Notes under the pieces: model-generated
The model's input: the letters and a program-made list of their open reading frames with translations, nothing else
Database searches by the model: none
Told to the model about the DNA's origin: nothing
In this document: positions 39,571-56,835 of the stretch, piece after piece
Layout of the letters: the number at the start of each line of letters is the position of its first letter
Position numbering within the stretch: position 1 is the stretch's first letter
Made by a program: the position numbers and the translations under genes
Origin: Streptomyces sp. WMMC940
GTDB lineage: Bacteria > Actinomycetota > Actinomycetes > Streptomycetales > Streptomycetaceae
Reading direction: 5' to 3'
Assembly (NCBI RefSeq): GCF_027460265.1
Contig: NZ_JAPZBC010000001.1
Coordinates: forward strand, 2,259,501 to 2,323,500
Length of the DNA: 64,000 bases

Positions 39571-39929
39571 AACTCGAGAGTAGGTCCGCGAACGCACCCG
39601 CGTCCGGCTTTTCCCCACTTCTGACCCGGACGGGGGGCGCAGGACGGGTGGAGGGGCTGTACGGACGGGGCGCCTGGCGGGGGCGGCCGGTGCGGGGTGG
39701 TGGGGACTCCGGGGGTTGGGCGCCCGACAGGTCCGGCCGGACTGCACGGCGTCCCGGGCGCGGCTTGGGTCGGGATCGGGTGGGGCGCGCGGGCGGCCAA
39801 GCCCGGGAGGCGAACGGCCGGCGTCCCCGGGGGCCCGGCGGCCCCACGGTCACGGGCTGGAAATACCTGTTCACGGGCACCCCATCAGAGCTGGTAGGGT
39901 TCTACCCGTCGCCGCCGAGAGCGGCGGAC
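39571..39929. other. Intergenic region with the tRNA-Arg promoter
   Basis: A 359-bp gap between divergent units. A likely -10 element for the tRNA is TAGGGT at 39895-39900, about 30 bases before the mature tRNA, with TTCACG (39870-39875) as a weak -35. The rest is G-rich sequence with no gene. Confidence 0.45.
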
Positions 39930-40001
39930 GCCCCCGTAGCTCAGGGGATAGAGCAACGGCCTCCGGAGCCGTGTGCGCAGGTTCGAATCCTGCCGGGGGC
40001 A
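39930..40001 (+). tRNA. tRNA-Arg (anticodon CCG)
   Basis: A full cloverleaf: acceptor GCCCCCG/CGGGGGC, D-arm GCTCAGGGGATAGAGC, anticodon arm ACGGC-CTCCGGA-GCCGT with anticodon CCG reading CGG, T-arm GCAGGTTCGAATCCTGC, discriminator A; CCA is not encoded. Its 3' 46 bases plus one more base are duplicated exactly at 56,772, showing that it is the integration site of the downstream island. The gene itself is intact because the element carries the replacement 3' end. Confidence 0.97.
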
Positions 40002-40002
40002 C
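39956..40002. repeat. Left attachment repeat (inside tRNA-Arg)
   Basis: A 47-bp core from the anticodon stem (ACGGCCTCCGG...) to the base after the discriminator (GGGGGCAC). It is identical to the copy at 56772-56818; the next base differs (T here, C there). Confidence 0.93.
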
Positions 40003-40012
40003 TCCGGGAAAG

Positions 40013-40049
40013 AACTCCTGACCTGCAGAAATACAGGTCGGGAGTTTTT
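40013..40049 (+). terminator. Rho-independent terminator donated by the island to tRNA-Arg
   Basis: AACTCCTGACCTG pairs with CAGGTCGGGAGTT (one T-G wobble) across an eight-base loop and is followed by TTTTT. It lies 11 bases after the tRNA inside the island, so integration replaced the original terminator, which now lies beyond the right repeat. Confidence 0.85.
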
Positions 40050-40422
40050 GCGTTCACATCAAAACGCACACGGTCTTTTGACCGTTGCTCTTTTCGAGGA
40101 AGGCGCTGCGCCACGGCTTGCCGATAACCCATTCCACAGGTCGATTTCCGCAGGTCAACGACTCACCGCTAGGCATTCAGCGACCTCGCTCCCCAGCAAA
40201 TGTCGGCCGAGCCGCGTCGCGGGAACCATGGGGTCGCTTTCCTTCGAACATCGCGCATGGCCTGCCTTTATGTGACTGACGGCACATGGAAACGCAAACG
40301 GTCTGGTGGGTCGTTGCCGCTTCGGCTTGGAGTGTTGACAGCAGCCTCACAGGGCGCGAGTCGAGCCATTCGTCACTCCAGCGCTGCAGTAGATCCCGCC
40401 GCGTATAGGAGGGCCTGTCCCC
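40050..40422. other. Island left end, non-coding
   Basis: About 370 bp of lower GC than the flanks. Short frames exist on both strands but none has protein-like composition or a ribosome site. It may contain the promoter for the small frame at 40423. Confidence 0.4.
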
Positions 40423-40590
40423 ATGGCTTCGTATGTTGGCAACGGCGGAAGAGTAACGACCGGCACGGACACGCCAGGGCCGGACTTCGCACCCGACGGA
40501 TCCGCAGCAAGCAAGGCGGACACCCAGCCGGCGCCACGGTGCGCCTGCACCGATGCACCGCGTGGCCGGAAGACGCGAGCACGGCTGTGA
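40423..40590 (+). CDS. Small open frame with a good ribosome site (55 residues), uncertain
   Basis: ATG at 40423 has AGGAGGG nine bases upstream, the best ribosome site in this part of the island. The product (MASYVGNGGRVTTGTDTPGP...) is Gly/Thr/Ala-rich, has two cysteines as CAC near its middle and ends in a basic RGRKTRARL. I recognise no family. It stops 31 bases before the DUF4241 start, so it may be a leader cistron, a small peptide, or the 5' end of a gene cut by a past deletion. Confidence 0.35.
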   Translation: MASYVGNGGRVTTGTDTPGPDFAPDGSAASKADTQPAPRCACTDAPRGRKTRARL

Positions 40591-40621
40591 CAGGGCCGCC
40601 CTCCCCGACGCTGAGATCAGC

Positions 40622-41905
40622 GTGATCATTGACGTGACGTACGGGGAGGGCTGGGACGCCGCCTCCCGCATGGTCCTTGGTCCCATCAGCCGGGAGCACG
40701 CCGCGAACCGGGACGCTACGGGCGAGCGGTACGCCGTGGTGCTGCGCGAGCGAGGGCGCCCGCAGCCGGTCGCCGTGCTGAACATCGCCTGGGCGCACGA
40801 CTACCTGGGCGTGTGGGCGTACGACGATCAGGGCCGTCGCACCCGTGAACTCGATCTGCGCCGCTTGGAACCCGATCGGCTCCTCCTCCGCCACATCGCT
40901 CAGTGGAGGTACGACAGCGACGACATGGCGGAGTTCGCAGACCGCGTGGGGCGCGTGCTCATCGACCTCTACCCGGACGGCAGGGGCCGGAAGGTGTCCG
41001 AACCGAAGGGGATCGGGGGCGGCTCGCTGCACACCCTGGCCGATGTTCCGGACGAGCAGCGCTGGGCGCCAGCTCCCGCATTCGGCGACTGGGCGTGGGC
41101 GGTGGCCATGGCGACCGACGGGCACGTATCCGGCGTCTCCCTGCGGGACGCACCGGTACAACGTCCTCCCCAGGACGGTCCGGCGGAAGACCGGGAGCAC
41201 GGTCATGCCACCGCCCCCGGGTGGTGTCTGCCCAGCCCCCTGCGCCCGCGCTACCTCGACGAGATGTTCACGCCCGGCACCCGCTTCACCCCACCGGACA
41301 CCCAGGCCACCGGCCCGTATGTCGTCGAGCGCGTCGTCGACGCAGGATCGCTACGGCTGCCGACCGGTCGGATCGTCGCCTGCGATCCGGGTTGGCTGGA
41401 TCCCGGCGAGCCGTTCACGGTGGCCGTACCGCCCGGCAGCTACCGCATGCAGATCGCGACTGCGGCCTACCGGACCGAGCACTGGGGCAAGACACTGGAC
41501 ATGCAGGATTTCACCGCCGCGCGCATCCTCATCTCCGGCAAACCCACGGCGACTTGGGAGCTGGCGCTGCGTCTCGGGGAGGACCCGCGGACGCTGCGCG
41601 ACGGCGAGTTCTACGGATTCGGCGTGGACACAGGCACCGGCTGCTTCGTCGACGCCGCGGCGGCCGACAGGCTCACCGGCGGAGAGAACACTGTCCCGGA
41701 CGACGACAGCCCCGACGGCATCGTCGTCCTCGACGACCCGACGTCCGGCGGCAACCTCATCGTCTACCCAAGCGGCATGGGAGACGGCTCCTACCCGGTG
41801 TGGATCGGCCGGGACGCCGACGGGGAGGTCACGTGCCTCGTCGCCGACATGCTGATCCTGCGCCATCAGGAACTGCTGCCGAACCGATCTCAGCAGGACT
41901 CGTAG
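40622..41905 (+). CDS. DUF4241 domain protein
   Basis: About 427 residues from a GTG at 40622 (IIDVTYGEGWDAASRM); an upstream ATG at 40553 in the same frame is possible. The N-terminal half is unassigned. The C-terminal half (from about residue 215) matches DUF4241: TGRIVACDPGWLDP, SYRMQIATAAY, WELALRLGEDPR, FYGFGVDTGTGCFVDAAAADRL and VYPSGMGDGSYPVWIGRDADGEV. DUF4241 proteins have no established function and often occur among toxin-immunity or accessory genes. It is the first large gene of the island. Confidence 0.75.
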   Translation: MIIDVTYGEGWDAASRMVLGPISREHAANRDATGERYAVVLRERGRPQPVAVLNIAWAHDYLGVWAYDDQGRRTRELDLRRLEPDRLLLRHIAQWRYDSDDMAEFADRVGRVLIDLYPDGRGRKVSEPKGIGGGSLHTLADVPDEQRWAPAPAFGDWAWAVAMATDGHVSGVSLRDAPVQRPPQDGPAEDREHGHATAPGWCLPSPLRPRYLDEMFTPGTRFTPPDTQATGPYVVERVVDAGSLRLPTGRIVACDPGWLDPGEPFTVAVPPGSYRMQIATAAYRTEHWGKTLDMQDFTAARILISGKPTATWELALRLGEDPRTLRDGEFYGFGVDTGTGCFVDAAAADRLTGGENTVPDDDSPDGIVVLDDPTSGGNLIVYPSGMGDGSYPVWIGRDADGEVTCLVADMLILRHQELLPNRSQQDS

Positions 41906-42102
41906 CGGAACTCGCCGGCGCCTCGGCGCGACGGACCGTCGGGCACCCCTCAGGCTCTCATAGCTCTGGAAACAGTGGCCGTCGACGTAACGGGCGGTCG
42001 AAAAGGGCTGGTGCGGTTCCCTGCGCCGCAGGGCGTTGGGCTTGGCTTGGACTCGGTGACTCCTCCGCGACTGCGAGATCGTCTGCGCTACCGTCGGGTG
42101 CT

Positions 42103-42876
42103 GTGGAGAGCACTGCGAAACTGGCGGTATTGATCGACGCCGACAACGCCAAGCCCTCGGCTCTGGAGGAGCTGCTGGCGGAGGTCGCCAAGTACGGGAC
42201 CGCGCACGTCAAGCGGGCCTACGGCGACTGGACCGGAACTCAGCTGAAGGGCCGGAAGGACCAGTTGCTCGCCCAGTCGATCCAGCCGATCCAGCAGTTC
42301 GCCTACACCACCGGAAAGAACGCCACCGACTCCGCCATGGTCATAGACGCCATGGACCTGCTGTACTCGGGGCGCTTCGACGGGTTCTGCATCGTCTCCA
42401 GCGACAGCGACTTCACCCGCCTCGCGGCCCGCATCCGCGAGTCCGGCCTGACTGTATACGGCTTCGGAGAACGCAAGACCCCTAAGCCGTTCGTCGCGGC
42501 GTGCGACAAGTTCCTTTACATCGAGAATCTCAAGAGCGCCACCGCCCCGGCTGAGGCGAAACCGGCCGCGCGAGCCACGGCGGTCAAGCTGAAGGGCGAC
42601 ACCGCGCTGGTCAACCTCCTTCGTCAAGCAGTGGAGGCAGCCTCCGACGACGACGGCTGGGCCCACCTCGCGAACGTCGGCCACATCATCACCAAGCAGC
42701 GCTCCGACTTCGACTCCCGCACGTACGGCTACACCAAGCTGAGCGACCTCCTGGCCGCCACCACTCTGTTCGAGATGGACCGCCGCACTCCCGGCGGCGG
42801 AAAGACGGCCGTCATATACGCTCGCGACAAGCGCCACACCGGCAACGGTCCCAAGGAGACAGTGTCAGAGGACTGA
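42103..42876 (+). CDS. NYN-domain protein with C-terminal OST-HTH/LOTUS domain
   Basis: A 257-residue protein starting at a GTG (ESTAKLAVLIDADNAKPS). The N-terminal NYN domain (1-145) has the PIN-like acidic residues: DADN, KNATDSAMVIDAMDLL and VSSDSDFTRLA. These fit a metal-dependent RNase of the LabA type. The C-terminal part (about 165-235: VNLLRQAVEAASDDDGWAHLANVGHIITKQ...DFDSRTYGYTKLSDLL) is an OST-HTH (LOTUS) RNA-binding domain. Together they suggest RNA cleavage or surveillance. It stands alone, 197 bp after the DUF4241 gene. Confidence 0.88.
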   Translation: MESTAKLAVLIDADNAKPSALEELLAEVAKYGTAHVKRAYGDWTGTQLKGRKDQLLAQSIQPIQQFAYTTGKNATDSAMVIDAMDLLYSGRFDGFCIVSSDSDFTRLAARIRESGLTVYGFGERKTPKPFVAACDKFLYIENLKSATAPAEAKPAARATAVKLKGDTALVNLLRQAVEAASDDDGWAHLANVGHIITKQRSDFDSRTYGYTKLSDLLAATTLFEMDRRTPGGGKTAVIYARDKRHTGNGPKETVSED

Positions 42877-43491
42877 TCTTCCGGCGCTGCTCAAACCCCT
42901 GTTGCCGCCCGCGGCATCCGGATCGACCGATCGGCGCACCAGTCACAGAACGTCCCAAATCACCGGTTCGGTGACAGCTTCGCACCCGGCCTCTGATACC
43001 GGACGTTGGTCCGGTGGTGCCTCGCACGGGGCGAGAGCCACCGGCTCGTCCACGCCGGGGGAAGGCGCCGATTGTGAGAGGGCGCGATGACGTTCGCTCA
43101 GCCGTCGCGCCAACCGGGACCACCGCAGCGGCGCGCCGAAGCTCGACTATGTCATGGCCACGCGGGGAGGCAGGCAGGTGACGGGGGAGAGCACCTGCCT
43201 GCCTCGGATACGGGCGTACCCGCTCACGAGGGGAGGAACGGGCATCACGGGACCTTTGCATACGGTCCACCTGCTCCAGCGTCCCGGCCGCCCGAAGCGT
43301 CACACCCGCACTCCCGTGTCCGCCGGATCGGGGTCGGCCATCCGCACCGGTTTCTTGGGCCGCAGCCTGTTGCCTCCGGAGCGGGAAGGCCCGGAGTCTG
43401 GGGCTGCCGCCATGTGTCCGCATCGTCTCCTGTCCGACGGTTCGTCCATGACCAGGGCCCACTGTCAGTGCCCGGCGGCACAATCGACCTC
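42877..43491. other. Non-coding interval in the island, about 0.6 kb
   Basis: A frame continuous with the next gene crosses this stretch, but its translation is His/Pro/Arg-rich and unlike the protein that follows. I see no RNA gene or strong hairpin. It should contain the promoter of the zinc-ribbon gene. Confidence 0.4.
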
Positions 43492-44514
43492 ATGCGCGAC
43501 CACCGCAACTTCAGAATGGCCGAGGGCGCAGAAATCGTCGGCCGCCAACGTGATGCGTACGAGATGCGGATCAGCATCCCGCTCGACGAAGACGGCTTCC
43601 TCGGACGCCAGTGCCCGGCCTGCTCGCTGCTCTTCCGCATGGACGCGCAGCAGTACGAGGCGCTGCCCGACGACCTCACCCTGTGGTGCGTCTACTGCGG
43701 CCACCACGCCGAGCACTCCGAGTTCGTGACCGCCCAGCAGCGCGAACGCCTCATGCAGGCCGTGGGCGACCTCGGCATGCAGATCGTGAGCCGGGAACTG
43801 AACCGCGCCTTCAGCGGCCTGTCCCGCCGAAGCTCCCGAGGGAGTGGGGTGTCAATCACCTATCGGTCGCAGCCCTACTACCCCCGTCCCCTGCCAGGCA
43901 TCAGCGAAGAACGCCTCGCCCGCATCCGCACCTGCCCCGGCTGCCAGGGCCGGTATGCGGTCTTCGGGGAACACCGGTACTGCCCAGTCTGCGGACAACT
44001 CCCCGCCGGTTCCGTGGCGTTCGACGCCCTCGAGGCCGACAAGGCGCGACTGGACGCTTTGGAGGCCCTACCGCCCGAAGCCAAAGCGCCGCTGCGCGAG
44101 CAAGGGGTCTTCACCCGCAACTGGGTGGACACGATCGAGAACATGGTGGGCGCCGTCGAGTCGCTTGCCTCCGCCACCTTCCGCGCGGCCGTGCCCAATG
44201 CGGAGGACCACCTCAAGGGCAAGGGCAACGTCTTCCAGCGCCTCGACGACACAGCGGACCTGTTCGTCGCCACCGGACACGCGGACGTCCGCACCGCTGT
44301 CGGGCCCGCGACCTGGCAGCGGCTGACGGAGACCTGGGCGACCCGCCACGTCTTCACGCACAACGACGGGGTCGTGGACGCGCGATACCTGGCCAGAGTC
44401 CCCGCGTCCACTGCCCGCGTCGGGCAGCGCCTCGTCGTCACCGGCGAAATGTGCCGCCAGGCGCTCGACGACACCACCACCCTCTGCGAAGCCCTCGTGG
44501 CGCTCACACCCTGA
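43492..44514 (+). CDS. Zinc-ribbon protein with HEPN-like C-terminal domain
   Basis: A 340-residue protein from the ATG at 43492. Two zinc ribbons are evident: CPAC (41-44) with CVYC (66-69), and CPGC (148-151) with CPVC (164-167). The C-terminal 140 residues are helical and end in TWATRHVFTHNDGVVDARYL, which contains R285-x4-H290, the spacing of the HEPN ribonuclease motif (Rx4-6H), followed by N and G as in many HEPN proteins. I infer a nucleic-acid-binding protein with possible RNase activity. It is not a family I can name, and the HEPN call rests on one motif and helical context. Confidence 0.7.
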   Translation: MRDHRNFRMAEGAEIVGRQRDAYEMRISIPLDEDGFLGRQCPACSLLFRMDAQQYEALPDDLTLWCVYCGHHAEHSEFVTAQQRERLMQAVGDLGMQIVSRELNRAFSGLSRRSSRGSGVSITYRSQPYYPRPLPGISEERLARIRTCPGCQGRYAVFGEHRYCPVCGQLPAGSVAFDALEADKARLDALEALPPEAKAPLREQGVFTRNWVDTIENMVGAVESLASATFRAAVPNAEDHLKGKGNVFQRLDDTADLFVATGHADVRTAVGPATWQRLTETWATRHVFTHNDGVVDARYLARVPASTARVGQRLVVTGEMCRQALDDTTTLCEALVALTP

Positions 44515-44533
44515 CGAATGCGAAGGTGCAGCG

Positions 44534-45115
44534 ATGGACACTGGGGTGGCTGCCCTGCTGGGTACAGCCGTGGGAGGACTCCTCGGAGCAGGCGGGACAC
44601 TAGGGCAGCCGCCCTGACGGGGACGGTCTCAGGGACGCAGTCAGCACTCGCAATGGCGACGTCAGGGGCGACGCGAGGTATACAGCAGATTCCTTGAGGC
44701 CATCACGGCCCACCAGGAAGCTCTGGGACGTCTTTCGTCCATGGCCTACGCCTCCGTCCGGGGAGACCACTCTTCGGAAGAACTCGGCACCGCGTGGCAG
44801 GAGGTATCCGCGCTCCTGCCGGCAGTGCGCGCCACCGGCCCCATCGTCATGGTCGAAGGACCACGCGGCATCGCAGACCTGGTCGCGGCCATCGTGGATC
44901 TTGCGACCACCGCCACACACAACGCCAGGTCATATTCCTTGATCCACGCCAAGCGCGCGTACGACGATCCAGCACTTGGCCAACGCTCGCGAGCGGCGTC
45001 GATGGCTGCCTCCGAACTCAAAGAGAAGCTTTCAGCCTTCGCAGAGCGGGCGCGAAACGCCCTGGACGCTCCGGACGGGCTTCTCGACGACATCGGCCTC
45101 CCAGCACAGCGCTGA
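44534..45115 (+). pseudogene. Broken gene of a membrane-anchored hypothetical protein
   Basis: ATG at 44534 starts MDTGVAALLGTAVGGLLGAG, a short hydrophobic anchor, but hits TGA at 44615-44617. The same frame resumes with RSQHSQWRRQGRREVYSRFLEAI and continues to 45115. The expected family text at the break (an Ala-rich turn then LTGRSQ) appears in the next frame just before the TGA, so I infer a one-base loss near 44604 and a one-base gain near 44622 that compensate each other. An ATG at 44741 could start a 124-residue remainder, but it lacks a ribosome site. Confidence 0.6.
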
Positions 45116-45324
45116 CACCGCGCAGGGCGTACAGAGGCCCTGACTTTGCCTTGATCGGGACCGTCGAACGGACCTCCGTCGTGGGGCGGGCTGGCTTCTG
45201 ACTGGGTCCCGCGCTGCCCAAGAGCCTGGACCACGATGCGAGCCGGGGTCTGCTTCATAACCGCCTCGTACCGGTCGAGCACCAGGGCCATCAGCTGGTG
45301 CGCGCCTTCAGCCATCAGGTGCGG

Positions 45325-45353
45325 TGAACGACCGCCCGTATCGCACGTACCCT
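45325..45353 (+). promoter_or_regulatory. Candidate promoter of the island rpoA
   Basis: TGAACG (45325-45330), a 17-bp spacer and TACCCT (45348-45353) resemble a sigma-70/HrdB promoter and lie 54 bases before the rpoA start. The ribosome site CTGGAGG follows at 45390-45397. The 5' leader would be about 45 bases. Confidence 0.4.
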
Positions 45354-45406
45354 CGTGGTGTCTACGGCGTCACATAGCGGGCGCCAAACACTGGAGGCAA
45401 TACCTC

Positions 45407-46426
45407 GTGCTGATTGCTCAGCGTCCTTCGTTGACCGAAGAGGTCGTCGACGAGTTCCGCTCCCGGTTCGTGATCGAGCCGCTGGAGCCGGGCTTCGGCT
45501 ACACCCTCGGCAACTCCCTTCGCCGCACGCTCCTCTCCTCGATCCCGGGTGCGGCGGTCACGTCCATCCGTATCGACGGTGTCCTGCACGAGTTCACCAC
45601 CGTGCCGGGCGTCAAGGAGGACGTCACCGATCTGATCCTCAACATCAAGCAGCTGGTCGTCTCCTCGGAGCACGACGAGCCGGTCGTGATGTACCTGCGC
45701 AAGCAGGGCCCGGGTCTGGTCACCGCCGCCGACATCGCGCCTCCGGCCGGTGTCGAGGTACACAACCCCAACCTCGTCCTCGCCACGCTCAACGGCAAGG
45801 GCAAGCTGGAGATGGAGCTGACGGTCGAGCGCGGTCGCGGTTACGTCTCCGCCGTGCAGAACAAGCAGGTGGGCCAGGAGATCGGGCGCATCCCGGTCGA
45901 CTCGATCTATTCGCCGGTTCTGAAGGTCACGTACAAGGTCGAGGCCACGCGTGTCGAGCAGCGTACCGACTTCGACAAGCTGATCGTCGACGTCGAGACC
46001 AAGCAGGCGATGCGTCCGCGTGACGCCATGGCCTCCGCCGGTAAGACCCTGGTCGAGCTGTTCGGTCTCGCCCGCGAGCTGAACATCGAGGCCGAGGGCA
46101 TCGACATGGGCCCGTCCCCCACGGACGCCGCCCTTGCCGCTGATCTGGCGCTGCCGATCGAGGAGCTCGAACTCACCGTCCGTTCGTACAACTGCCTCAA
46201 ACGTGAGGGCGTCCACTCGGTGGGTGAGCTTCTGGCGCGTTCCGAGGCGGACCTGATGGACATCCGTAACTTCGGTGCGAAGTCCATCGACGAGGTCAAG
46301 GCGAAGCTGGCCGGCATGGGCCTGGCCCTCAAGGACAGCCCGCCCGGATTCGACCCCACGGCCGCGGTCGACACCTTCGCCACCAACGACGCGGACACGA
46401 GGTTCGTCGAGACCGAGCAATACTGA
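45407..46426 (+). CDS. rpoA: DNA-directed RNA polymerase alpha subunit, extra copy on the island
   Basis: A complete 339-residue alpha subunit starting at a GTG ([11 protein letters not shown]) with GGAGG ten bases upstream. The N-terminal assembly domain has [18 protein letters not shown], including the Arg pair (39, 40) needed for binding beta. The C-terminal domain keeps the UP-element and activator residues: Arg259 and Asn262 in [10 protein letters not shown], Gly290, Lys292 and Ser293 in NFGAKS. The end FVETEQY is the normal Streptomyces tail, as I recall it. Arg codons are often CGT, as in highly expressed genes and unlike the neighbours. In Streptomyces rpoA normally sits between rpsD and rplQ; neither is here, so this should be a second copy carried by the island. 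Confidence 0.95.
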
Positions 46427-46598
46427 ACGCTCTTCGCTGCCCGCCCAAGCCAGTGTGCCCGGGCGCATTCAGTCGCGCCGGCATACCAGCTCGGCTGCGA
46501 CCCCGGGAGCCGTGAGGGGAGCTGCTGCTCTGGGCCAGGCTGACGCGGATGGCCCGCACCAGCTCCGCACCGAGCTTGCCCGCCAAATCCGCGACGCC
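46424..46598 (-). pseudogene. Decayed fragment of a tyrosine integrase
   Basis: On the minus strand VADLAGKLGAELVRAIRVSLAQ matches residues near the N-terminus of the intact island integrase (VAGLAGEFGAELVRAIRVGLAE). After a frameshift the text SWYAGATECARAHWLGRAAKS matches its continuation (SWYSFATEYARAHWPGRAAKT). The fragment ends exactly at the rpoA stop codon. No start, catalytic domain or stop is present. It is a remnant of a related but distinct integrase. Confidence 0.8.
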
Positions 46599-46715
46599 AA
46601 GGTACGAGAGAGGGCAATCCAGAGCAATCGGACGCGGCCGGGAGTATACGCACGTTCAGCGCCGGCCCAGGAGAAACCACTCGATCATTCCCTCCGCGGC
46701 GAGGATCATGGCGGA

Positions 46716-48233
46716 ATGGCTGCGTACCTGTATGACCGGCTGGTGACGGAGGACGAATACCGCCAGCGCATCCGGCGGCACCGTCCCAGCTCACTGCTGC
46801 CCCTGATCGCTGCGGCGGCGGCCCGCTACAGCTCGCCCGAGCAGCCACAGCCGTGGCTGAAAAGCCCCTCAATGAAGTACACGCCCTGGGCGCTGGCTGA
46901 CGCGGCCCGCGTCAGCCTGGCCTACGGAACCGAGCACCTGCGCTCCGAGGCCACCGAACGCGACCTGCTGGAGATCCTGGCCGCGTACTCCAGCCTGAAG
47001 GAACCGACCCTTCACGGCACCGACGAGGGCCCGGTCCGCCTGCGGGACTTCATGATGCGCCTGGGCGGCGAGCAGATGGCCTTCCAGGCACCGGAGTTCT
47101 TCAGCCTGGCCCGTACGGCGGCGCTGTACCTTCACACTCCGTTCCCCGCACACCGCCAGCCCCGCTGCATGGTCCCCGGCTGGGACACCGAGGTGTTCGG
47201 CTGCCCGCTGCCCGACTACGTCGGCACCGCACAACTGCTGTGGGGATGTGCGCTGTTCAACACAGGGCGTTTCGATCCCGCGCTCTACGACGGCCCGGAC
47301 GGGGAGAACTTCAACCGCACCGTCAGCCGGGACACCGTCCTGCGCGTCGTCGAACGGCACTTCGCCACCGACGTGGCCTCTATCAAGGCAGCCGAGAAGC
47401 AGGCCACGCGGAACCTGGCGAGGGTGGCTGGCGGCACAGCGGCACAGCTGCGCCGCTTCACCTACAACCCGCTGCTGGGCCGGCCGGCGGTCACCGGCTT
47501 CGGACCTGGCCTGCTGTGTCCCTCGCCCCAGCTGGTCTGGCGCAAAGCGACCCCGTCTGGCATCTACCACACAGGACGCGAGCACTTTGGACCCGACTTC
47601 CTGCAGGAGACCGGCTACCTCTTCGAGGAGTACGTCGGCCGCCAGCTCCGCCTGATACCGGACGCCGACGTGGTCTCGGAGATCACGTACCGGGTCAAGC
47701 GGAACGAACTGCAGAGCGTCGACTGGATCGTCGTCTTCGACGACCTGGTGCTGCTCGTGGAGGTCAAGTCCATGATGCCGACCGAGAACGCCCGGCTCGG
47801 CCTGGAACTCGGAGTCGCCGAGACCGACAGCAAACTGGCCCGCGCCTACCGCCAGGTCGACGCCACCTCGGCCCAGATCGACCAGCGCCATCCGGCATTC
47901 GCCGGCATTCCGGCCGACCGGCCACGCCAGGCGCTGATCGTCACCCTTGAGCCGTTCCCCGTCGCCAACGCCAACCTGCCCCACCTCGGCCTGCCCACCG
48001 TCGATGTCCCGACCACGGTCGTCGCGGCCCACGAAGTCGAACGCCTGGCGACCCTGACCGACACCACCCCCAGCTCTCTGCTCCTGGAGCGGGCGGCCGA
48101 CCCCCAACGCTCCACCTGGGCCCTCAACGAGTGCCTGAACGGGCACGAGAACTCCCTGAACCCGGTCCTCGTCCAGGGATGGGCGTCCTACCCCTGGGCC
48201 AGCGGCCGGCTGTCGGCCCTGAACACGCCGTAG
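46716..48233 (+). CDS. Large protein with PD-(D/E)XK/NERD-like nuclease motif
   Basis: A 505-residue protein from the ATG at 46716 with a GCGAGG ribosome site. The N-terminal 290 residues are helical and unassigned. Residues 300-355 carry a restriction-nuclease-like core: GYLFEEYVGRQLRLI (helix with Glu304/305), ITYRVKRNELQSVDWIVVFDDLVLLVEVKSMM, with Asp336 and the E349-V-K351 motif. The rest has GVAETDSKLARAYRQVD (a helix after the core) and a C-terminal domain with PRQALIVTLEPF. I infer a metal-dependent nuclease, perhaps a defence effector. It lies downstream of rpoA and the integrase fragment. Confidence 0.7.
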   Translation: MAAYLYDRLVTEDEYRQRIRRHRPSSLLPLIAAAAARYSSPEQPQPWLKSPSMKYTPWALADAARVSLAYGTEHLRSEATERDLLEILAAYSSLKEPTLHGTDEGPVRLRDFMMRLGGEQMAFQAPEFFSLARTAALYLHTPFPAHRQPRCMVPGWDTEVFGCPLPDYVGTAQLLWGCALFNTGRFDPALYDGPDGENFNRTVSRDTVLRVVERHFATDVASIKAAEKQATRNLARVAGGTAAQLRRFTYNPLLGRPAVTGFGPGLLCPSPQLVWRKATPSGIYHTGREHFGPDFLQETGYLFEEYVGRQLRLIPDADVVSEITYRVKRNELQSVDWIVVFDDLVLLVEVKSMMPTENARLGLELGVAETDSKLARAYRQVDATSAQIDQRHPAFAGIPADRPRQALIVTLEPFPVANANLPHLGLPTVDVPTTVVAAHEVERLATLTDTTPSSLLLERAADPQRSTWALNECLNGHENSLNPVLVQGWASYPWASGRLSALNTP

Positions 48234-48377
48234 TCCGTCTCCCCCGGCCGGGGCGCCAGGTCGTCTGGGGACTCCCGCAGGGACGGATCACCGGCGGGCC
48301 GGTGGCCGCCCGGCCTCGTACGGTCGGGTCCGAGTTCCGCACACACAGGTAGGAGGATGAGCGGTAGGATAGGTAGC

Positions 48378-48641
48378 ATGAGTGAGCCTACCGGCAAGTA
48401 CTCGATCACCATGCCGCGCGACATCGCCGAAGCCGCCAAGGCCCGCAGCGGCCCCTCCGGCCTGTCCGCCTATGTCGCCGCCGCCGTCGCCCGCCAGATC
48501 GAACGCGACAACCTCAACGAACTCATCACCGTCGCCGAAGCCGAACACGGCCCCGTCACCGACGAGGAGATCCAGGCCCTGCGCGACCAGCTCCACCAGG
48601 CCCGCGACAACCAGGCGACGGGCGGAGCGAACGCCGCGTGA
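48378..48641 (+). CDS. RHH-type antitoxin (VapB-like)
   Basis: An 87-residue protein. Residues 5-45 (GKYSITMPRDIAEAAKARSGPSGLSAYVAAAVARQIERDNL) form a ribbon-helix-helix DNA-binding domain, and the acidic C-terminus (AEAEHGPVTDEEIQALRDQL) should wrap the toxin. I chose the ATG at 48378; an in-frame ATG at 48357 sits directly on an AGGAGG run and is a poorer start. The stop overlaps the toxin start by four bases. Such antitoxins normally repress their own promoter; the repeated GGTAGGA words upstream (48349-48376) are a candidate operator. Confidence 0.88.
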   Translation: MSEPTGKYSITMPRDIAEAAKARSGPSGLSAYVAAAVARQIERDNLNELITVAEAEHGPVTDEEIQALRDQLHQARDNQATGGANAA

Positions 48642-49051
48642 CCCGCTCCCCCGCCACCCCCGGCGGCACCCTCGTACTGGACAGCGAGGGACTGGCCAAG
48701 GCCGTCCTCCGCGACCGCACGGTCACCGCCTGGCTCGCCCTCGCCCGAGCCGACGACCTGCGGGTGATCACCTCCGCGGCCACCCTGGTGGAAGTCGTCC
48801 ACCCGCGGATCAACCGCCCCGCCCTGGAGTGGACGCTCTCGCGCCTCGTCGTCGAACCGGTCACCGAGCCCATCGCCCGCCACGCCGCCGCCCTCCTCGC
48901 CGACGCCGGCCTGCACGGCCACAAGTACGCCATCGACGCCATGCTCAGCGCCACCGCCCTCGCCGCCCCCGGGCCGGCCACGATCCTCACCTCGGATCCC
49001 GAGGACCTGACCGCGCTGTGCGGTGGGCACGCCACCGTCATCAAAGTCTGA
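48638..49051 (+). CDS. PIN-domain toxin (VapC-like RNase)
   Basis: A 137-residue PIN-domain protein with the acidic metal-binding set: Asp in TLVLDSEGLAKAV, Glu in AATLVEVVHPR, Asp in KYAIDAMLSATAL and Asp in ILTSDPEDL. VapC toxins cleave tRNA or rRNA when freed from antitoxin. The ATG overlaps the antitoxin stop (ATGA), the usual coupling that keeps toxin below antitoxin. The pair can stabilise the island by post-segregational killing. Confidence 0.88.
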   Translation: MTRSPATPGGTLVLDSEGLAKAVLRDRTVTAWLALARADDLRVITSAATLVEVVHPRINRPALEWTLSRLVVEPVTEPIARHAAALLADAGLHGHKYAIDAMLSATALAAPGPATILTSDPEDLTALCGGHATVIKV

Positions 49052-49148
49052 TCCTGCTCTCGACTTATGGCTGAGTCATGGCCGCTCTCTGCGACGCCCG
49101 TTCAAGATCCACCTTGGGATCCGTTACACCGGGAGTGAGGGTGTCTAC

Positions 49149-51068
49149 CTACGGCGCTTCGTACTCCTTGGGCATATGGATTTGCCGGATGGTGGCCGGG
49201 TCGCGTGGCACCGGAACGGCTTGGGTGCTGATGATCTGGGTGCCCGTGGCCTGGGCCGCGTTTGCCAGATCCTGCAGGACGTCGTCGACCACAGTGGTGC
49301 CGATGCCCTGCTGGTAGGGGTTGTCCAGGAGCAGCAGGCCGGGGGCTGCTGCTCCTTCGTCGAGGTCAGAGGCCAGGAACAGGGTGGCGTAGCTGTAAGC
49401 CAGGAAGAAGAGCACCTTCGTCTCTGCCCCCAGGGCTTGGTCCCAGGGGCGAGTGCCGACGTAGAAAGTGAGGTCACTGTCGTTGATGGTGATGGCGCCC
49501 TTGACCCAGCCGCGTTCGCGGTAGCGGTGCAGGAATTCGTTCATTCGCTCGGCGAACAGGGCGCATCGTTCGACGGAAGTGAGCGTAGCTGTGGCAACTG
49601 CGGCGGGCTCTTGGGCGAGTGCGTCGACGGCTTGTTGTGCAGCGGTGACGGCCTGGCTGGCTACGGCGCGGCGTTGGAGGATCTCCTCGATGGCCGGAAA
49701 GGCTGTCATCTTCTGTTCGAGCTGGGCGATCTGGGCGGCGAGGTTTTCGAGGCTGGCCATGAAGGGGGCCAGCTGCGCGGCGCGTTCTTCGTTGATGCGA
49801 TGCGCGAGCCGTGCCTGTTCGTTTTGAAGGTCTGCTCGGCGGGTGCGGGCCGTCTGCAGATCGGCGGCGGTGCGGGCGGTGACATCTTCCAGGTCGGCAA
49901 GTTCTGACTTGAGTGACCGGATCTCCACCTGTGCCCGTCGGCGGCGCTGGTCGTCGTCGACCGGTTGGAAGCACAGGTAGCAGGCGTCTTCGCCATGCTC
50001 TCGGTGCGGGTCCACGCGTTGTTCGCATGCTGGGCAGAGTCGTACGGGGAGGGCGTCGAAGGTCTCCACGGAGGCGATGAGGCGTTCCATGCGGGTCACT
50101 TCCGAGGTGACCGTCTGGGCGGAGTAGGCGTGTTCGTTGCTGAGTTGTTCGAGCGCGACGACCTCGTCGACCGCCAGTTGCAACCGCCTGGATATGTCTT
50201 CGTAGGCGCTCGTCAGTGACGAGTCGTATCCGGCTGCCGTCTCGGTGGTGGACGTTCCCTGCAGGAGGCTGTTGATCTCGCGCGTCAGTTCATGACGTCG
50301 TTGGCGAACCGCGTGCAGTTGAGCGGTGACCTCTTCCCGTGCGGTCGCTACCTGGTCGAGGGTGCGGGCGACGGGAATGCGGAGCCGTTCGGAGATGGCG
50401 GTGACGGCCTGCAATGTGCTGTCCTGCACGTCCCGCTCCACTGCCTGGGCTTCGGCAAGGCGCCGCCTGGCCTGGGCGACGGCGAACTCCTTGGTGTCGT
50501 AGCGGGAGCCGGCAAAGCCGAGGAGCATGCTGACGACGCCGCGCCGGATGAATTCCTGCTCCTTGTTGGCGAAGCTCGTCCAGGACTCCTCGTTGCGGTA
50601 GAAGTGGCGCAGCAGGTTCCGGAAGGACAAGGGCGTCAGTTCACTGGCCGTGGCCGGGTGGAGACCCTTGGGGATGCGCAGGTTGGGCCAGCCCAGTTCG
50701 CGCAGGATCCAGTCGGAGAAGTCGGCGTCGGTCAGCTCGTCTCCGTCGACGTACACCTTGTTCATGCGCCCGTGCTGGAGGAGACGAGTCAGGGTGCGGG
50801 GGTGGCCGTTGAGCCGGATCGCGGTGGAGACCTCGATGTACTCGTCGGAGACGGCGGCACCGAGAGCATCGATCATCCCGCCGCGGTCGCCGAAGCAGTA
50901 GTCGATGACCTTCAGCGTGGTGGTCTTGGAGCTGTTGCGGGGCCCGCTGAGGATGTTCAGCATGCCTGTTCCGAAGGCATACTCGTCGATTTCTGCGGTG
51001 TTGTGGACGAGCTTGACGGAGTCGATCCTGATCCCGCGGTCGGGGTGGGCGGTCACGGGTTTTGTCAT
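49149..51068 (-). CDS. SMC/Rad50-like ATPase of an ABC three-component (ABC-3C) system
   Basis: A 639-residue ATPase. The N-terminal Walker A is SGPRNSSKTT (41-50), followed by YCFGDRGGM. Long coiled coils span about 195-335 and 375-500, with a central zinc site CPAC (345-348) and CYLC (363-366), like a Rad50 hook. The C-terminal half-site has GAETKVLFFLAYSY (547-560, signature position) and Walker B PGLLLLDNPYQQG (576-588), then IISTQAV. This is the ATPase of ABC-3C conflict systems. It is last in a three-gene operon, overlapping the middle component by four bases. Confidence 0.88.
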   Translation of the reverse strand: MTKPVTAHPDRGIRIDSVKLVHNTAEIDEYAFGTGMLNILSGPRNSSKTTTLKVIDYCFGDRGGMIDALGAAVSDEYIEVSTAIRLNGHPRTLTRLLQHGRMNKVYVDGDELTDADFSDWILRELGWPNLRIPKGLHPATASELTPLSFRNLLRHFYRNEESWTSFANKEQEFIRRGVVSMLLGFAGSRYDTKEFAVAQARRRLAEAQAVERDVQDSTLQAVTAISERLRIPVARTLDQVATAREEVTAQLHAVRQRRHELTREINSLLQGTSTTETAAGYDSSLTSAYEDISRRLQLAVDEVVALEQLSNEHAYSAQTVTSEVTRMERLIASVETFDALPVRLCPACEQRVDPHREHGEDACYLCFQPVDDDQRRRRAQVEIRSLKSELADLEDVTARTAADLQTARTRRADLQNEQARLAHRINEERAAQLAPFMASLENLAAQIAQLEQKMTAFPAIEEILQRRAVASQAVTAAQQAVDALAQEPAAVATATLTSVERCALFAERMNEFLHRYRERGWVKGAITINDSDLTFYVGTRPWDQALGAETKVLFFLAYSYATLFLASDLDEGAAAPGLLLLDNPYQQGIGTTVVDDVLQDLANAAQATGTQIISTQAVPVPRDPATIRQIHMPKEYEAP

Positions 51069-51643
51069 GGCCGGATCTCCTGGCGGAAGGGCGCGTTGCC
51101 GACCTCGTCTGGGAACAGGTCGTAGATCAGGTTCTTCAGGTCGGTGCCCGACATGGCAGCCAGATTTCCTCGCATAGCCTGACAGCGCCGGACCAGTGGC
51201 TGGAACTGAGGGGCCTCGGTAAGGCGTTGTGCGGTCCTCTTGCCGGCGGCTTTGAGTTTCACTCGTTCGACCCGGTGGGTGGTGATGGTCACGAGGTCCC
51301 GAGAGACGAGGAAGGCGAGGAATTGCCGGTAGCGCTGGTCCCAGGGTCCGTAGCGGTAGCGGATCATAGGTGCCTCGACTTCGGACGGGTCACGGGCGAG
51401 AAACGCGGTTTCGGTATCGACGGCTTCCGGCATCGCGGCGTGGGCCCGCTCCAGGAATCCTGGATAGCGCACGAAGAAATCAAGTTTGGCGAACTTCGTC
51501 CGTCCCTCGATATAGGGGCCGGGCTCCTCGCCGCAGAGGTAGATGAGCAGCAGGAGCCGTGTTGCGTGGAAGTCAGGGGAGTCGTCCGGGTCCCAGGCGC
51601 GATACAGCGGGGGCACCACGCTGCTGCCGATCTTATGAGGCAT
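51065..51643 (-). CDS. ABC-3C middle component
   Basis: A 192-residue protein between the ATPase and the nuclease. The text ATRLLLLIYLCGEE, GRTKFAKLDFFVRYPGFLERA and MIRYRYGPWDQRYRQFLAFLVSRDLV follows the ABC-3C middle-component pattern (a winged-helix-like adaptor thought to link ATPase and effector). It overlaps the effector gene by 11 bases and the ATPase gene by four. No catalytic residues are evident, in keeping with an adaptor role. Confidence 0.85.
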   Translation of the reverse strand: MPHKIGSSVVPPLYRAWDPDDSPDFHATRLLLLIYLCGEEPGPYIEGRTKFAKLDFFVRYPGFLERAHAAMPEAVDTETAFLARDPSEVEAPMIRYRYGPWDQRYRQFLAFLVSRDLVTITTHRVERVKLKAAGKRTAQRLTEAPQFQPLVRRCQAMRGNLAAMSGTDLKNLIYDLFPDEVGNAPFRQEIRP

Positions 51644-52721
51644 CGGCGTACCTGTTCTGGCAGCGTGCCGTGATGTCGGAAAGCACTGCGTGGGCCTCGG
51701 CGAGGGTGAACTGCCGGCTGGTCACCTCGGGCAGGTCGCTCACGGCCACAAGCGTCTCGAAGTACGCCGCCGAGCCGGCGGCGAGGCGTCCGGCGCGTCG
51801 TTTCGCCATCGTGAGCGTGCAGATGGCGTTGATCTGATCGGCCAGGTCGTCGTACGCGCGGCGCCGGGTGCCGACACTGGCGCGGTAGGTCCGACGGTAG
51901 GCGAGCATGGCATCGTGCTGGGCTTCCGCCTCGGGCTCCGGTATTTCGGCAGCTCGCAGCTTGAGCTTGAGTTTCATCAACAGTTCGGTGGAACCGTCTC
52001 GCCGTCGCCCGGTTGCTCTGCGCACGCTGTCGTCCAGGTCCCGGCCGAAGTCGTCCGCGGTGAAGGTTGTCGGTCGCAGCTCAAGGGCGCTGCGGGCTAT
52101 GTACTTGGAGATCAGCCAGATCATGACCTCCTCGACTTCCTCGTACAGCGGTTTCTCGCCCAGGCACGCTTCCACCAGTGGCGCCAGTCGCGCCATGGCC
52201 TCGGCCTCGACCTGGTCGATGGTGCGCGCCTCCACCAGGACGTCCAGGCGGTCGACACACCATCCGATGTCCCTGCCGTCTGGCAGTTGCACCCCGCTGA
52301 GCCTCTTGACGATGTCCGCGCGGGCGTCCGCGCTCACCGGGCCGCGAGGACGATCACGTTCCGCGACGAACGCATACAGGTCCCGCTGGGGCGTCTCGTT
52401 GACGATGAAGGTGAACCGTGTGCCGTCCGGCAGCGGCTTGCCCAGGAACAGCTTGCCCAGATAGCTGCTGTCTGCGGCCTTCTTCTCCTCCGGCTTGCAA
52501 ACGTTGGCGATACTGTGCCGCGTACCGGCTTCCTCGATCGTCTTGACCTGCCGGTATACGGGGGCGCCGTCCCGATGACACAGGATGTCCTCCAGGTCCT
52601 CCCACGAGACAGCCGTCCACCGCCCTTCGAGCATGTCCAGGCAGTCCAGCAACGTGACGGCATCCTGGTAGGCGAACCCGCGCCTGCTCCGACGGCCGCC
52701 GTCAGCAGGCGCGAGAGCCAC
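51633..52721 (-). CDS. ABC-3C effector with DUF4297 (Cap4-type) nuclease domain
   Basis: A 362-residue protein from a GTG at 52721 (ALAPADGGRRSRRGFAYQ) with a GAGG site six bases upstream; an ATG at 52799 would add 26 residues without a ribosome site. The N-terminus is the DUF4297 restriction-like fold: GFAYQ (15-19), WEDLEDI (40-46) and the catalytic YRQVKT (56-61), where Glu/Asp and Gln-x-Lys match the PD-(D/E)XK core of Cap4-like DNases. The C-terminal 250 residues are helical and probably the sensing or ATPase-docking part. It is the first gene of the operon, so it should be the toxic effector. Confidence 0.85.
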   Translation of the reverse strand: MALAPADGGRRSRRGFAYQDAVTLLDCLDMLEGRWTAVSWEDLEDILCHRDGAPVYRQVKTIEEAGTRHSIANVCKPEEKKAADSSYLGKLFLGKPLPDGTRFTFIVNETPQRDLYAFVAERDRPRGPVSADARADIVKRLSGVQLPDGRDIGWCVDRLDVLVEARTIDQVEAEAMARLAPLVEACLGEKPLYEEVEEVMIWLISKYIARSALELRPTTFTADDFGRDLDDSVRRATGRRRDGSTELLMKLKLKLRAAEIPEPEAEAQHDAMLAYRRTYRASVGTRRRAYDDLADQINAICTLTMAKRRAGRLAAGSAAYFETLVAVSDLPEVTSRQFTLAEAHAVLSDITARCQNRYADAS

Positions 52722-53050
52722 GGCTGCCTCGTGCGCGCTGGCGCACAGCGCTGAACCCTCGATACACGGCAAAATGGCCTGTTCGCACAGTTCCCCCATA
52801 AGCCACTTCGGAGCATGCAGTAGATCACCGCATCACCCAGAAGAGCAACGGTCGTGCAGAACATCAACCCCGCTCCGTGTCCGCGCCGCTACACCTGCGG
52901 CACGGCAGGAGATGTGACGGCGGCTCAAGCGCGAGCCACGGACATGCGCAGGGGAACCGTCGGAGACGCGCACGCACCCGAGCGCACGCCGCAACGGTCG
53001 GACCGCGTACCCACCCACGCCATGTCCGCGATCCCAGGCTAATCGTGCGC

Positions 53051-54244
53051 CTAGTCAGGCTCAGGCGGCTGGCCGTAGGAGCTCAACAGCCCTTCGATGC
53101 GCTGGTTGTTGATGGACTGCCGGTCATACAGGCACTTCGCGTACCGGGACAGCAGAACCTCGACACTGTTGCCGGCCCGCTGGGCGACCTCGGCCGGGTC
53201 CGCGCCCGCGCACAGCCACGTGGACAGCGCCGAATGCCGCAGATCGTACGGCCGCTTCGCGAGCGGCGTGCTGGTGAGCGCCGGAGACAGGGCAAGGTCG
53301 CGGCTCTCGCGCCAGACCCGGTGGTAGGTGGAGTAGCTGACGACCCGGCCCTGTTCGGTGAAGAACAGCCGCCCATCGTCGGCCGTGCCGAACGTGGCAA
53401 CATGCTCCCTCCACATCGCCACCAGATGCGGGGGCAGCGGCACCACCCGCGTCTCCCCGGGCGGGCGGTTCTTCAGCCCGCGCTCATCATGGAACTCGCC
53501 GGTGTCGGTCCACCGTTTACCCGCCTGCGGCCGAGTACGGTGCAGGATCAGCCGCCCCCACCCAGTGCGGGGCAGCCGGCAGTCCGGCAGCGCCACCGCG
53601 ACCGCCTCCTCCGGACGCAGGGCCCGCGTAGTACATCTGCCCAGCTCGCCCCGCTCCACGGCGTAATGCAGCGCGTGCACCAGCACCTTGCGCTTACGGC
53701 GCATCGTCTCCACCGCCGCCTCACTCCCGTCCAGCTTGCGGCGCAGCGACTCCAGCACATCACGTGCCAGGACCGGATCATGCAGATCCACCAGGGGACG
53801 GGATGCCTTGGCGACCCACTGCAGCACCAGCCGGTCCTGCACCGACATCTCCCCCTGTCCCGGCCGGAGCGTGACGAACGCCCAGTGCCGCAGGGCACGG
53901 CGCAGCAGGTGCCCGTTCGGCCGGCCCGGAAGGTCCCCCAGCATCGCCATCGTGACGGCCGTCAGCGCGTCGCTGACCTCGTCCCGGGTCTTCGCCGCCC
54001 GGCCTGGCCAATGGGCTCGCGCGTACTCGGTCGCGAAGGAGTACCAGCTCATGTGCGACGGCCCCCGTGCCCCCTGGCCGGAGTTGCTCACCTCGGCCAG
54101 TCCCACGCGGATGGCCCGCACCAGCTCCGCCCCGAACTCTCCGGCCAAGCCCGCGACCGCGCTGCCGCCGTGCGGCTGCGCCGGGGTTCGGTCCGCAGGC
54201 TGCTCGGGCTGAGATGCGGCGCCGTGGTGCTCGTTCAGGTCCAT
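53051..54244 (-). CDS. int: Tyrosine-family site-specific integrase of the island
   Basis: A 397-residue recombinase starting at the ATG at 54244 with AGGAGG five bases upstream. An N-terminal Ala/Arg-rich arm-binding region includes LAGEFGAELVRAIRV and WYSFATEYARAHWPGRAAKT. A SAM-like core-binding domain and the catalytic domain follow (LRPEEAVAVALPDCRL... HRTRPQAGKRW). Box II reads KRPYDLRHSALSTWLCAGADPAEVAQRAG and the nucleophile Tyr lies in VLLSRYAKCL. It should catalyse integration at the tRNA-Arg repeat. It lies 2.5 kb from the right repeat rather than next to it, which is unusual, and no excisionase gene is seen beside it. Confidence 0.92.
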   Translation of the reverse strand: MDLNEHHGAASQPEQPADRTPAQPHGGSAVAGLAGEFGAELVRAIRVGLAEVSNSGQGARGPSHMSWYSFATEYARAHWPGRAAKTRDEVSDALTAVTMAMLGDLPGRPNGHLLRRALRHWAFVTLRPGQGEMSVQDRLVLQWVAKASRPLVDLHDPVLARDVLESLRRKLDGSEAAVETMRRKRKVLVHALHYAVERGELGRCTTRALRPEEAVAVALPDCRLPRTGWGRLILHRTRPQAGKRWTDTGEFHDERGLKNRPPGETRVVPLPPHLVAMWREHVATFGTADDGRLFFTEQGRVVSYSTYHRVWRESRDLALSPALTSTPLAKRPYDLRHSALSTWLCAGADPAEVAQRAGNSVEVLLSRYAKCLYDRQSINNQRIEGLLSSYGQPPEPD

Positions 54245-54503: not shown

Positions 54504-55904
54504 ATGGCGAGAACCGCGCGACAGATCCTGAACGCTCTCAGCCGCTCGACGAGCGTTCACATCCACTCGACGACAGAACTGGCCGCGCACGTGGACTCCG
54601 CGGCGGCGGCCATCGACAAGCGGCGTCGGCAGAAGGGCCAGGAGGCAGCGCGCAGGAAGCCCGACCTGCGGCCGGTCGCGCTGGCCGAGCACGGGCGGTC
54701 CATTGACCTGACGCCGTGGCAGGTGCTGCATGCCGTAGCCCGCGGCTACGTGCTGGCCGGCCAGGGAATGGGGCGCGGGCTGGCGGAACACTGGCTGAGC
54801 CTGAAGTTCTGCGAGGCGCTGGACGGCAATCGCGCCGGCGCCATGGATCTCACCGACAAGGGCCGCTCTTCCGAAAGCTGGTACAAGGGCATGCAGGCGC
54901 GGGAGCTGGCCGTCGGCTTCGGGCTCGCGGTGGCGGAGCACATCGTGCAGCAGCGTTACCCCGACCACATCGTCTCGGTCGTGGACACGAACACGGTGCT
55001 GCGAGCCGGCTGGCCCCTGAGCGTCTCCCAACGGAACAAGGGCTCACGGCCCCGGCCCGACTACATCATCGAGGCATGGAAACCCGGCGAGCCGTCGAAA
55101 GTCACCTTCGTGGCCTGCCGCGGAAACCACCAGAAGCCCAGCAAGCGCACCGGCCGAACCCGCAGCACCACGATCCAGCAACTGGTCAAGGGAGCAGAAC
55201 TGACCGAGGGAATGCAGATCGGCCCCTGGAACACGACGCCCTGTCTGATGCTGTCCACCGAACTCATGGGCCAGAGCGGGGTCGTGGTCAATGTGCTGCA
55301 ATCCCCAGGCGAGGCACTGCTCCCCCTCCGAATACCCGGCGCCCTGAATGACGCCGACGAGGAGATCAGGGACAATCCCGGAATCCCCTACCCCAACGCC
55401 ATTCGCGTACCGGCCCGGGACGGTCGACGGGCGCGGACGGTCGACGGCTTCCAGGTGGGCGAGGACGATCTCGCCTGGTTCGGTCAGCTCCTGGCCCGTA
55501 CCGCAGCAGCCGGCCTGACCGCTTTCTCCGGCGGACGGAAATACACGGCCGGGTATCTCACCGCCCGCCAAGGGCGAGAGCACTACGACGTGCCCGCCTT
55601 CGCCGCAACCTCGAGCGTCGACGACGCGGACATCGAGGTCGGCGACACGAAATTCGTCGGCACAGACAACGTCTTCCGCATGGGGACCGCACGCATCGAG
55701 GCGTTCTCCGGAATGGACTCAGAACTGTACGAACTGATCAAAGACGGCCGCGTGGAGGAGTACCGGCAAGCGGCCTACGAACTCCACTCCAAACGGCGCG
55801 ACTCCCATGCAGCCGGGAAATGGAACGACCCGATCTCGTTCCAAGACGACAGCACCGTCATGGCCCTGAGCATCCTGCCCATCCGCAAACGGCGCCCGCT
55901 CTGA
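54504..55904 (+). CDS. Large island protein of unknown function
   Basis: A 466-residue protein from the ATG at 54504. It begins with a helical, basic region (RQILNALSRSTSVHIHSTTELAAHVDSAAAAIDKRRRQKGQEAARRK). The central part includes RPRPDYIIEAWKPGEPSKVTFVACRGNHQ, which has the shape of a nuclease-like sheet (PD, then E, then a basic residue), but the canonical ExK is absent. The C-terminal third is mixed alpha/beta. I recognise no family. It is divergent from the integrase, with about 260 bp between them, and is the last intact gene before the right repeat. Confidence 0.75.
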   Translation: MARTARQILNALSRSTSVHIHSTTELAAHVDSAAAAIDKRRRQKGQEAARRKPDLRPVALAEHGRSIDLTPWQVLHAVARGYVLAGQGMGRGLAEHWLSLKFCEALDGNRAGAMDLTDKGRSSESWYKGMQARELAVGFGLAVAEHIVQQRYPDHIVSVVDTNTVLRAGWPLSVSQRNKGSRPRPDYIIEAWKPGEPSKVTFVACRGNHQKPSKRTGRTRSTTIQQLVKGAELTEGMQIGPWNTTPCLMLSTELMGQSGVVVNVLQSPGEALLPLRIPGALNDADEEIRDNPGIPYPNAIRVPARDGRRARTVDGFQVGEDDLAWFGQLLARTAAAGLTAFSGGRKYTAGYLTARQGREHYDVPAFAATSSVDDADIEVGDTKFVGTDNVFRMGTARIEAFSGMDSELYELIKDGRVEEYRQAAYELHSKRRDSHAAGKWNDPISFQDDSTVMALSILPIRKRRPL

Positions 55905-56771: not shown

Positions 56772-56818
56772 ACGGCCTCCGGAGCCGTGTGCGCAGGTTC
56801 GAATCCTGCCGGGGGCAC
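56772..56818. repeat. Right attachment repeat
   Basis: An exact 47-bp copy of the tRNA-Arg 3' end (ACGGCCTCCGG... to GGGGGCAC). It lacks the 5' half of the tRNA, so it is not a gene. It marks the right edge of the island. Confidence 0.93.
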
Positions 56819-56835
56819 CTCGAAGAAGGTGCCCA

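Follow-up and report, generated by a model that had tools for sequence, protein, structure and literature searches.

The 64,000-nucleotide stretch of Streptomyces DNA analysed here (the window) carries a complete second gene for the alpha subunit of RNA polymerase, rpoA2, on the forward strand at 45407..46426. Its reading frame runs uninterrupted from a GTG at 45407 through codons up to 46423 to a TGA ending at 46426 and encodes 339 aa, in which the dimerisation, insert and C-terminal domains of Pfam each score above the cut-off. Arg39/40 and the C-terminal residues 259, 262, 263, 290, 292 and 293, which we take to be the assembly and the DNA-contact residues of alpha, respectively, are kept. 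An earlier note on this DNA was thus right in describing a full-length rpoA with its key residues intact, and the good ribosome site that it mentioned is a GGAGG at 45393-45397, ahead of the GTG. Upstream of the gene, at 45332..45406 (+), pattern matching and identity comparison place a leader that is common to a whole family of second rpoA genes. A plausible promoter, also claimed earlier, was not recovered: we found no sigma-70-type promoter in 44900-46800, although the leader is conserved among second copies. The closest solved chain to the product is the alpha of 7vpd, from which it differs before position 269 at two residues, 122 and 228.

The gene lies in an island of about 16.8 kb enclosed by two 47-bp repeats without a mismatch. 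The left attachment repeat (39956-40002) consists of the last 47 bp of a tRNA-Arg (CCG) gene at 39930..40002 (+); the right one, identified by repeat comparison as a perfect copy of that 3′ end, spans 56772..56818 (+), and a tRNA match slightly below the cut-off (56747-56817) coincides with this right border. In at least 6 of the 25 relatives searched (G006, G009, G011, G013, G014 and G015), the outer flanks adjoin, in G006 at a distance of ~55 bp, which represents the empty site. Integration at a tRNA gene, as proposed in the earlier note, is therefore confirmed, as is the lack of ribosomal-protein neighbours: none occurs among the called genes around rpoA2 in the island. An Rfam scan of 39500-57500 returned nothing beyond the tRNA and antisense matches on it. 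Right of the island, 616 bp (57242-57857) corresponding to a leuC-like 5′ part are identical to C1:2063283-2063898 on the opposite strand; this duplicate may reflect a recent rearrangement or an assembly join.

Among the island genes is a 397-aa tyrosine recombinase (53051..54244, −), which matches a PHROG integrase profile and has relatives named tyrosine-type recombinase. Because ~60 internal profile positions found in its relatives are missing, this recombinase is perhaps inactive, and the island may have lost the capacity for self-excision. Directly behind the rpoA2 stop codon lies a fragment of a tyrosine-recombinase gene (46431..46595, −) that shares 74% DNA identity with 53989-54157 and was missed by a broader integrase profile. 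Profile matches further revealed a protein with NYN and OST-HTH/LOTUS domains (42130..42876, +), a weakly GapS1-like protein under the curated cut-off (46716..48233, +) and three genes resembling Lamassu LmuB, LmuC and LmuA/HamA, with a Cap4 nuclease domain (49149..52799, −). A small protein and a PIN-domain protein, the latter assigned by Pfam (48378..49051, +), constitute a probable toxin–antitoxin pair, their pairing being something we infer. For a 437-aa protein (54591..55904, +) no family was found, yet in the genome G188 a 95% identical relative of it, together with a related integrase (75%), resides near a second rpoA. In its 47-bp tRNA-end repeats, integrase, defence-like cargo and empty site, the element resembles other tRNA-integrated islands, from which it differs in harbouring an intact core RNA polymerase gene and in the internal gap of its integrase.

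The genome itself (7.67 Mb, three contigs) contains one further full rpoA at C1:2992310-2993329 (−), 96% identical, and the genome-wide search suggested in the earlier note thus yielded a canonical copy. This leaves virtually no chance that rpoA2 is the relocated essential gene or a misassembly. The duplicated leuC-like piece could mark a wrong join, but one outside the island; the contig measures 7.63 Mb, the repeats are clean, relatives have the empty site, and the unit of leader and gene recurs in many genomes. Relative to its own canonical counterpart, the window copy shows Y17F, D122N, D228E, I269V, V276L and L284M, along with differences in the last twenty residues and in the start codon. 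Only three differences fall in the N-terminal assembly domain (residues 2-235), where there is no divergence of the Francisella type.

In the protein search of relatives, alphas elsewhere in the genus were at most 97% identical to the rpoA2 product; the second copy of G188 shares 99% protein identity with it. CGT accounts for 10 of the 20 Arg codons of rpoA2 and 9 of 19 in the G188 second copy, against 3 of 19 in the rpoA native to the host and between 1 and 6 in each of eight further genes of the island, in agreement with the earlier observation that its Arg codon use is unlike that of its neighbours. By dS, the host's own rpoA ranks only 32nd of 41 for the window copy, and the middle of the gene has not been overwritten by the resident one. 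Given this rank and the resemblance of its Arg codons to those of the G188 second copy, the window rpoA2 is, as judged from sequence comparison, foreign to its host. The proposed capture from a chromosome is upheld, the gene being derived from a chromosomal rpoA, and the choice that the earlier note had left between self-duplication and foreign origin falls on the latter. Being unconverted by its present host, the copy suggests a recent arrival together with the tRNA-Arg island.

Second rpoA genes are widespread in the genus. Protein searches identified a second full-length rpoA in 12 of 72 same-genus relatives, a count that leaves out G001, G021 and G032 with split pieces; two full copies occur in none of the 47 relatives from outside the genus. 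The leader pattern, applied with up to 3 mismatches and fitted by the window leader with zero, matched 56 of 295 genomes of the genus, own included. After removal of seven genomes with canonical-type matches only (three checked by position or protein search, and four, G143, G197, G212 and G227, set aside on leader sequence alone), a second-type leader stands in 49 of 295 genomes, own included, or about one in six. All 50 readable second-leader loci run into rpoA. When 36 carriers were searched with the protein, rpoA matches, whole or in pieces, appeared in every one, and at least two in all except G205, which was left out because that rpoA is its only one. An exact leader scan of 84,980 species returned 48 stretches, from Streptomyces plus one Actinacidiphila and one 'Actinobacteria bacterium OV320' record; all 48 run into rpoA, 42 with GTG (two read by eye) and 6 with ATG. 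S. noursei is among the carriers recovered in this way.

Some genomes carry several such loci: three second-type leaders occur in G189, two in G259 and two identical ones in G300. The G300 loci (L124 and L125) lie towards the two opposite ends of the chromosome in identical surroundings, a situation to be expected if the copy sits within terminal inverted repeats. The identical twin, G300b, was excluded from tree, neighbour and integrase counts and kept in residue, dS and leader counts. G131 and G193, with the leader at a contig edge, were left out, as was G341 (L110), in which a second-type leader joins at ~codon 71 and the first 70 codons are absent; the genome's other copy is likewise truncated at that codon, and the damage may be due to deletion or decay, or to an assembly fault. 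The incomplete genes of G032, G325 and G327 were omitted from protein, dS and tree counts, and the dS set contains no own canonical copy for G188, G189 and G230.

The leaders of second copies have a common stretch unlike the leaders of canonical rpoA. For 49 of 50 second leaders, the nearest leader is another second leader, the exception being the hybrid G301, and median leader identity is 0.85 between second copies compared to 0.65 between a second copy and its own canonical. A GTG start is used by 43 of 47 second copies, compared to ATG in 41 of 41 canonical ones. The window copy bears both marks usual, albeit not universal, in the family, the GTG start and Val269. The common leader and the usual GTG start therefore argue for one origin of the second copies. 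A 2011 study called the rpoA pair of S. avermitilis a fairly recent duplication, in the parts of that source available here (PMC3294249); extended to all carriers, this reading would have each genome duplicate its rpoA independently and recently. Many second copies do pair with their own canonical in a whole-gene tree, but such a history is exceedingly unlikely, contradicted as it is by the common leader (49/50), by GTG in 43/47 against ATG in 41/41, and by conflicting trees for the middle and the end of the gene.

Gene conversion reconciles these patterns. By dS, 31 of 42 second copies have their own canonical as the nearest among 41 (the remaining 11 include the window's), and 32 of 42 share their longest run with it. 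In a tree of codons 81-240, 23 of 46 second copies are sister to their own canonical, and a single clade of second copies is rejected (p-AU 0.001, lnL difference 714). For codons 241 to the end, only 3 of 46 are sister to it, and the test does not reject one clade (p 0.16); identical rows present on both sides, a single set, were left free in these region trees. Hybrids exist: G301 combines a second-type leader with a canonical ribosome site and ATG, and G189b has a canonical-looking end. Since the middle often matches the resident rpoA, and the leader and C-terminal part seldom do, the simplest account of these sequences is that the resident gene overwrote the middle, comprising most of the N-terminal assembly domain, of many second copies. 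The mosaic is roughly symmetric about the gene middle, with the 5′ and 3′ ends retained to a similar extent; distance from the ends of homology may thus explain which parts are kept, and the C-terminal part may have been retained through an edge effect of conversion rather than through selection. Altogether, the second copies suggest an old, mobile family masked by conversion.

Second copies occupy many unrelated places, from chromosome arms and interiors to islands and linear plasmids. On 11 of 27 chromosome-scale contigs, the second copy lies in the outer 10% of either end (expected 5.4, p 0.011, G300 counted once). Matches to at least 97% of the gene plus leader occur in 21 Streptomyces plasmid records; on one of these plasmids, NZ_CP108499, a 130-kb mobilizable linear plasmid, rpoA2 lies near genes for single-stranded-DNA-binding and terminal proteins. 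The earlier statement that genes for core RNA polymerase almost never move consequently does not hold for rpoA in Streptomyces, whose chromosomes commonly carry a second copy that is also found on linear plasmids. Six plasmid regions were fetched, one window-like with GTG and five with an ATG leader variant (L170-L174). This leader subtype, ATTGCCGATACCGTGCGG with near variants and an ATG start, was also seen in the chromosomes of G047, G322 and G330, and is perhaps a separate plasmid lineage.

Integrase pieces cluster close to second copies, with a density of 12.3 per 100 kb in the nearest 600 bp (7 sides of 6 loci) compared to 0.4, 1.8 and 1.7 per 100 kb at 0.6-3, 3-6 and 6-9 kb, and none occurs within 600 bp of the 41 canonical copies. 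Most of these pieces lie on the opposite strand and cover the same C-terminal portion. Depending on the search, 6 or 7 of 49 loci have a piece at 600 bp or less, and owing to shared descent these may represent fewer than six events. A general link to tRNA genes was dismissed (9 of 52 loci, about chance by estimate). Carriage by phages was not supported either, as 20 of 50,697 phage records matched, none above 63% identity, and a Tsukamurella 'plasmid' match turned out to be a normal alpha operon. When 19 upstream regions, one of which is the canonical itself, were compared to their own canonical region, the leader and short weak matches were all that emerged, and the idea of ribosomal genes copied along was abandoned.

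Among the matches listed, the neighbours of second copies differ nearly everywhere, with a few genome pairs having some in common. Our neighbour scans covered 186 of the 188 neighbours of 49 second copies, two very long ones being left out; in the lists, which gave up to 25 Pfam families with the most frequent first, no family occurs in more than 4 of either neighbour set (92 and 94), with one exception. That exception is a CarD/TRCF-RID-like gene of 73 aa, which precedes the second rpoA on the other strand at 11 of 50 loci (L042, L044, L105, L108, L109, L113, L114, L115, L135, L137 and L139). It was mostly missed by the gene caller, and its domain (PF02559) scores slightly below the cut-off; the distance to rpoA is ~200 bp in eight cases, 427 bp in L042 and 3.7 kb in L108. 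The gene is absent at the other 39 loci, the window's included.

The neighbours also bear on the proposal of phage resistance, according to which a spare alpha would escape phage proteins that act on alpha. The Lamassu-like, PIN-domain and weakly GapS1-like genes of the window island speak in its favour, and to this extent the earlier suggestion stands; it is not supported for the family in general, in which no defence family recurs more than three times among the 186 neighbours of 49 copies (each PADLOC family matched at most 3 of 92 and 3 of 94, counted from second-copy loci alone). As the C-terminal contact residues are moreover those of the host alpha, we regard an anti-phage device as very unlikely.

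None of the assembly and DNA-contact residues named above varies among the 47 full second copies, and the rpoA2 product should therefore join the host polymerase and bind DNA normally. Because of this invariance, the shift in promoter choice suggested in the earlier note is weakened. Changes from the consensus at residues 245-310 number zero in 41 canonical copies and average 3.8 in 46 second copies, with still more change in the tail; residue 269 is Val in 42 of 47 second copies and Ile in all 41 canonical ones. The retained 5′ segment shows no protein divergence comparable to that of the C-terminal part. A specialised alpha, which through its changed C-terminal domain and tail would work preferentially with other activators or promoters as part of a special programme, would account for these differences, and the RID-like gene at 11 loci agrees with it. 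However, the C-terminal changes are mostly conservative, relaxed constraint accounts for them too, and most loci lack the RID-like gene, which makes such specialisation rather unlikely. As sequence patterns, the changes fit either relaxed constraint or mild specialisation.

Second copies change faster in protein than canonical ones, and this, with one truncated copy (G341), patchy distribution and neighbours that have almost nothing in common, would be expected of a passenger of little benefit, which islands and plasmids carry along and which conversion and recent arrival keep intact-looking. We nevertheless consider a mere passenger unlikely: no rpoA match in the protein searches of relatives and carriers contains an internal stop, the medians between second copies are 0.025 for dN and 0.26 for dS, and the leader is retained at a median identity of 0.85.

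Our main reading, to which we assign a probability of roughly 0.65, is that the window gene belongs to a mobile family of accessory alpha genes whose product would be expressed from the leader typical of the family and built into the host polymerase. Production from this leader would place the subunit outside ribosomal-operon control. As the N-terminal domains nearly match, the accessory alpha would be expected to dimerise freely with the host alpha, and part of the polymerase pool would then contain one accessory alpha, or two, differing slightly from the host subunit in the C-terminal domain and tail. Of the conceivable benefits, the most likely would be extra alpha that allows polymerase assembly while the ribosomal operon is down. 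We prefer an extra, separately controlled alpha over specialisation as the putative function. A broader idea, which we put forward only tentatively, is that of a mobile core subunit evolving by domains, in which conversion would keep the assembly half matched to the host, the leader and C-terminal half would form a separate lineage, and the outcome would be a separately controlled polymerase variant, in some lineages with a CarD/RID-like partner.

Genes of the core transcription machinery serve as textbook cases of resistance to transfer. In Streptomyces, such a gene travels on islands and linear plasmids and is present as a second copy in about one sixth of the sampled Streptomyces genomes. 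Domain-wise conversion is a possible way for a transferred gene whose product forms complexes to stay compatible with its host. Our findings also call for caution where rpoA is naively used in Streptomyces as a marker for phylogeny or copy number, and they make it testable, with safe laboratory organisms, whether and why a cell runs two alphas. In the literature searched, where coverage of subscription journals is thin, nothing described an rpoA family as mobile or plasmid-borne, and the 2011 Francisella paper was the sole note on Streptomyces rpoA duplicates. In the parts consulted, that paper lists a pair of rpoA genes for Francisella, Chloroflexus and S. avermitilis as well as two segmental cases of very recent date, and describes RpoA1 and RpoA2 of Francisella as a lineage-specific duplication, said to be present in every sequenced genome of the genus, that evolved faster and underwent subfunctionalisation (PMC3294249). 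As in Francisella, two non-identical full-length alpha genes per genome make a mixed dimer possible; unlike the Francisella pair as portrayed there, rpoA2 is patchy and mobile and has its N-terminal part homogenised with the host gene. The same parts of the paper give no leader, mobility, plasmid or conversion data for S. avermitilis or Chloroflexus (PMC3294249), and the second rpoA of S. avermitilis may well be a member of the rpoA2 family.

With the canonical rpoA of the alpha operon, rpoA2 shares 92-99% protein identity within a genome, the key residues and a leader hairpin; the canonical gene differs in its ATG start, its own type of leader, its ribosomal-protein neighbours and residues 245-310 that are identical in 41 of 41 copies. 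The hairpin is small (GGCGTC, loop ACATAGCG, GGCGCC; 45366..45385, +), lies ~42 nt before the start in both rpoA types and shows compensatory changes in canonical leaders. Among 20 unique canonical hairpins, which are related sequences, 119 of 120 inner pairs are maintained and two pairs covary, compared to a mean of 111.6 and a maximum of 116 pairs in 2000 shuffles. The hairpin is a possible site of regulation.
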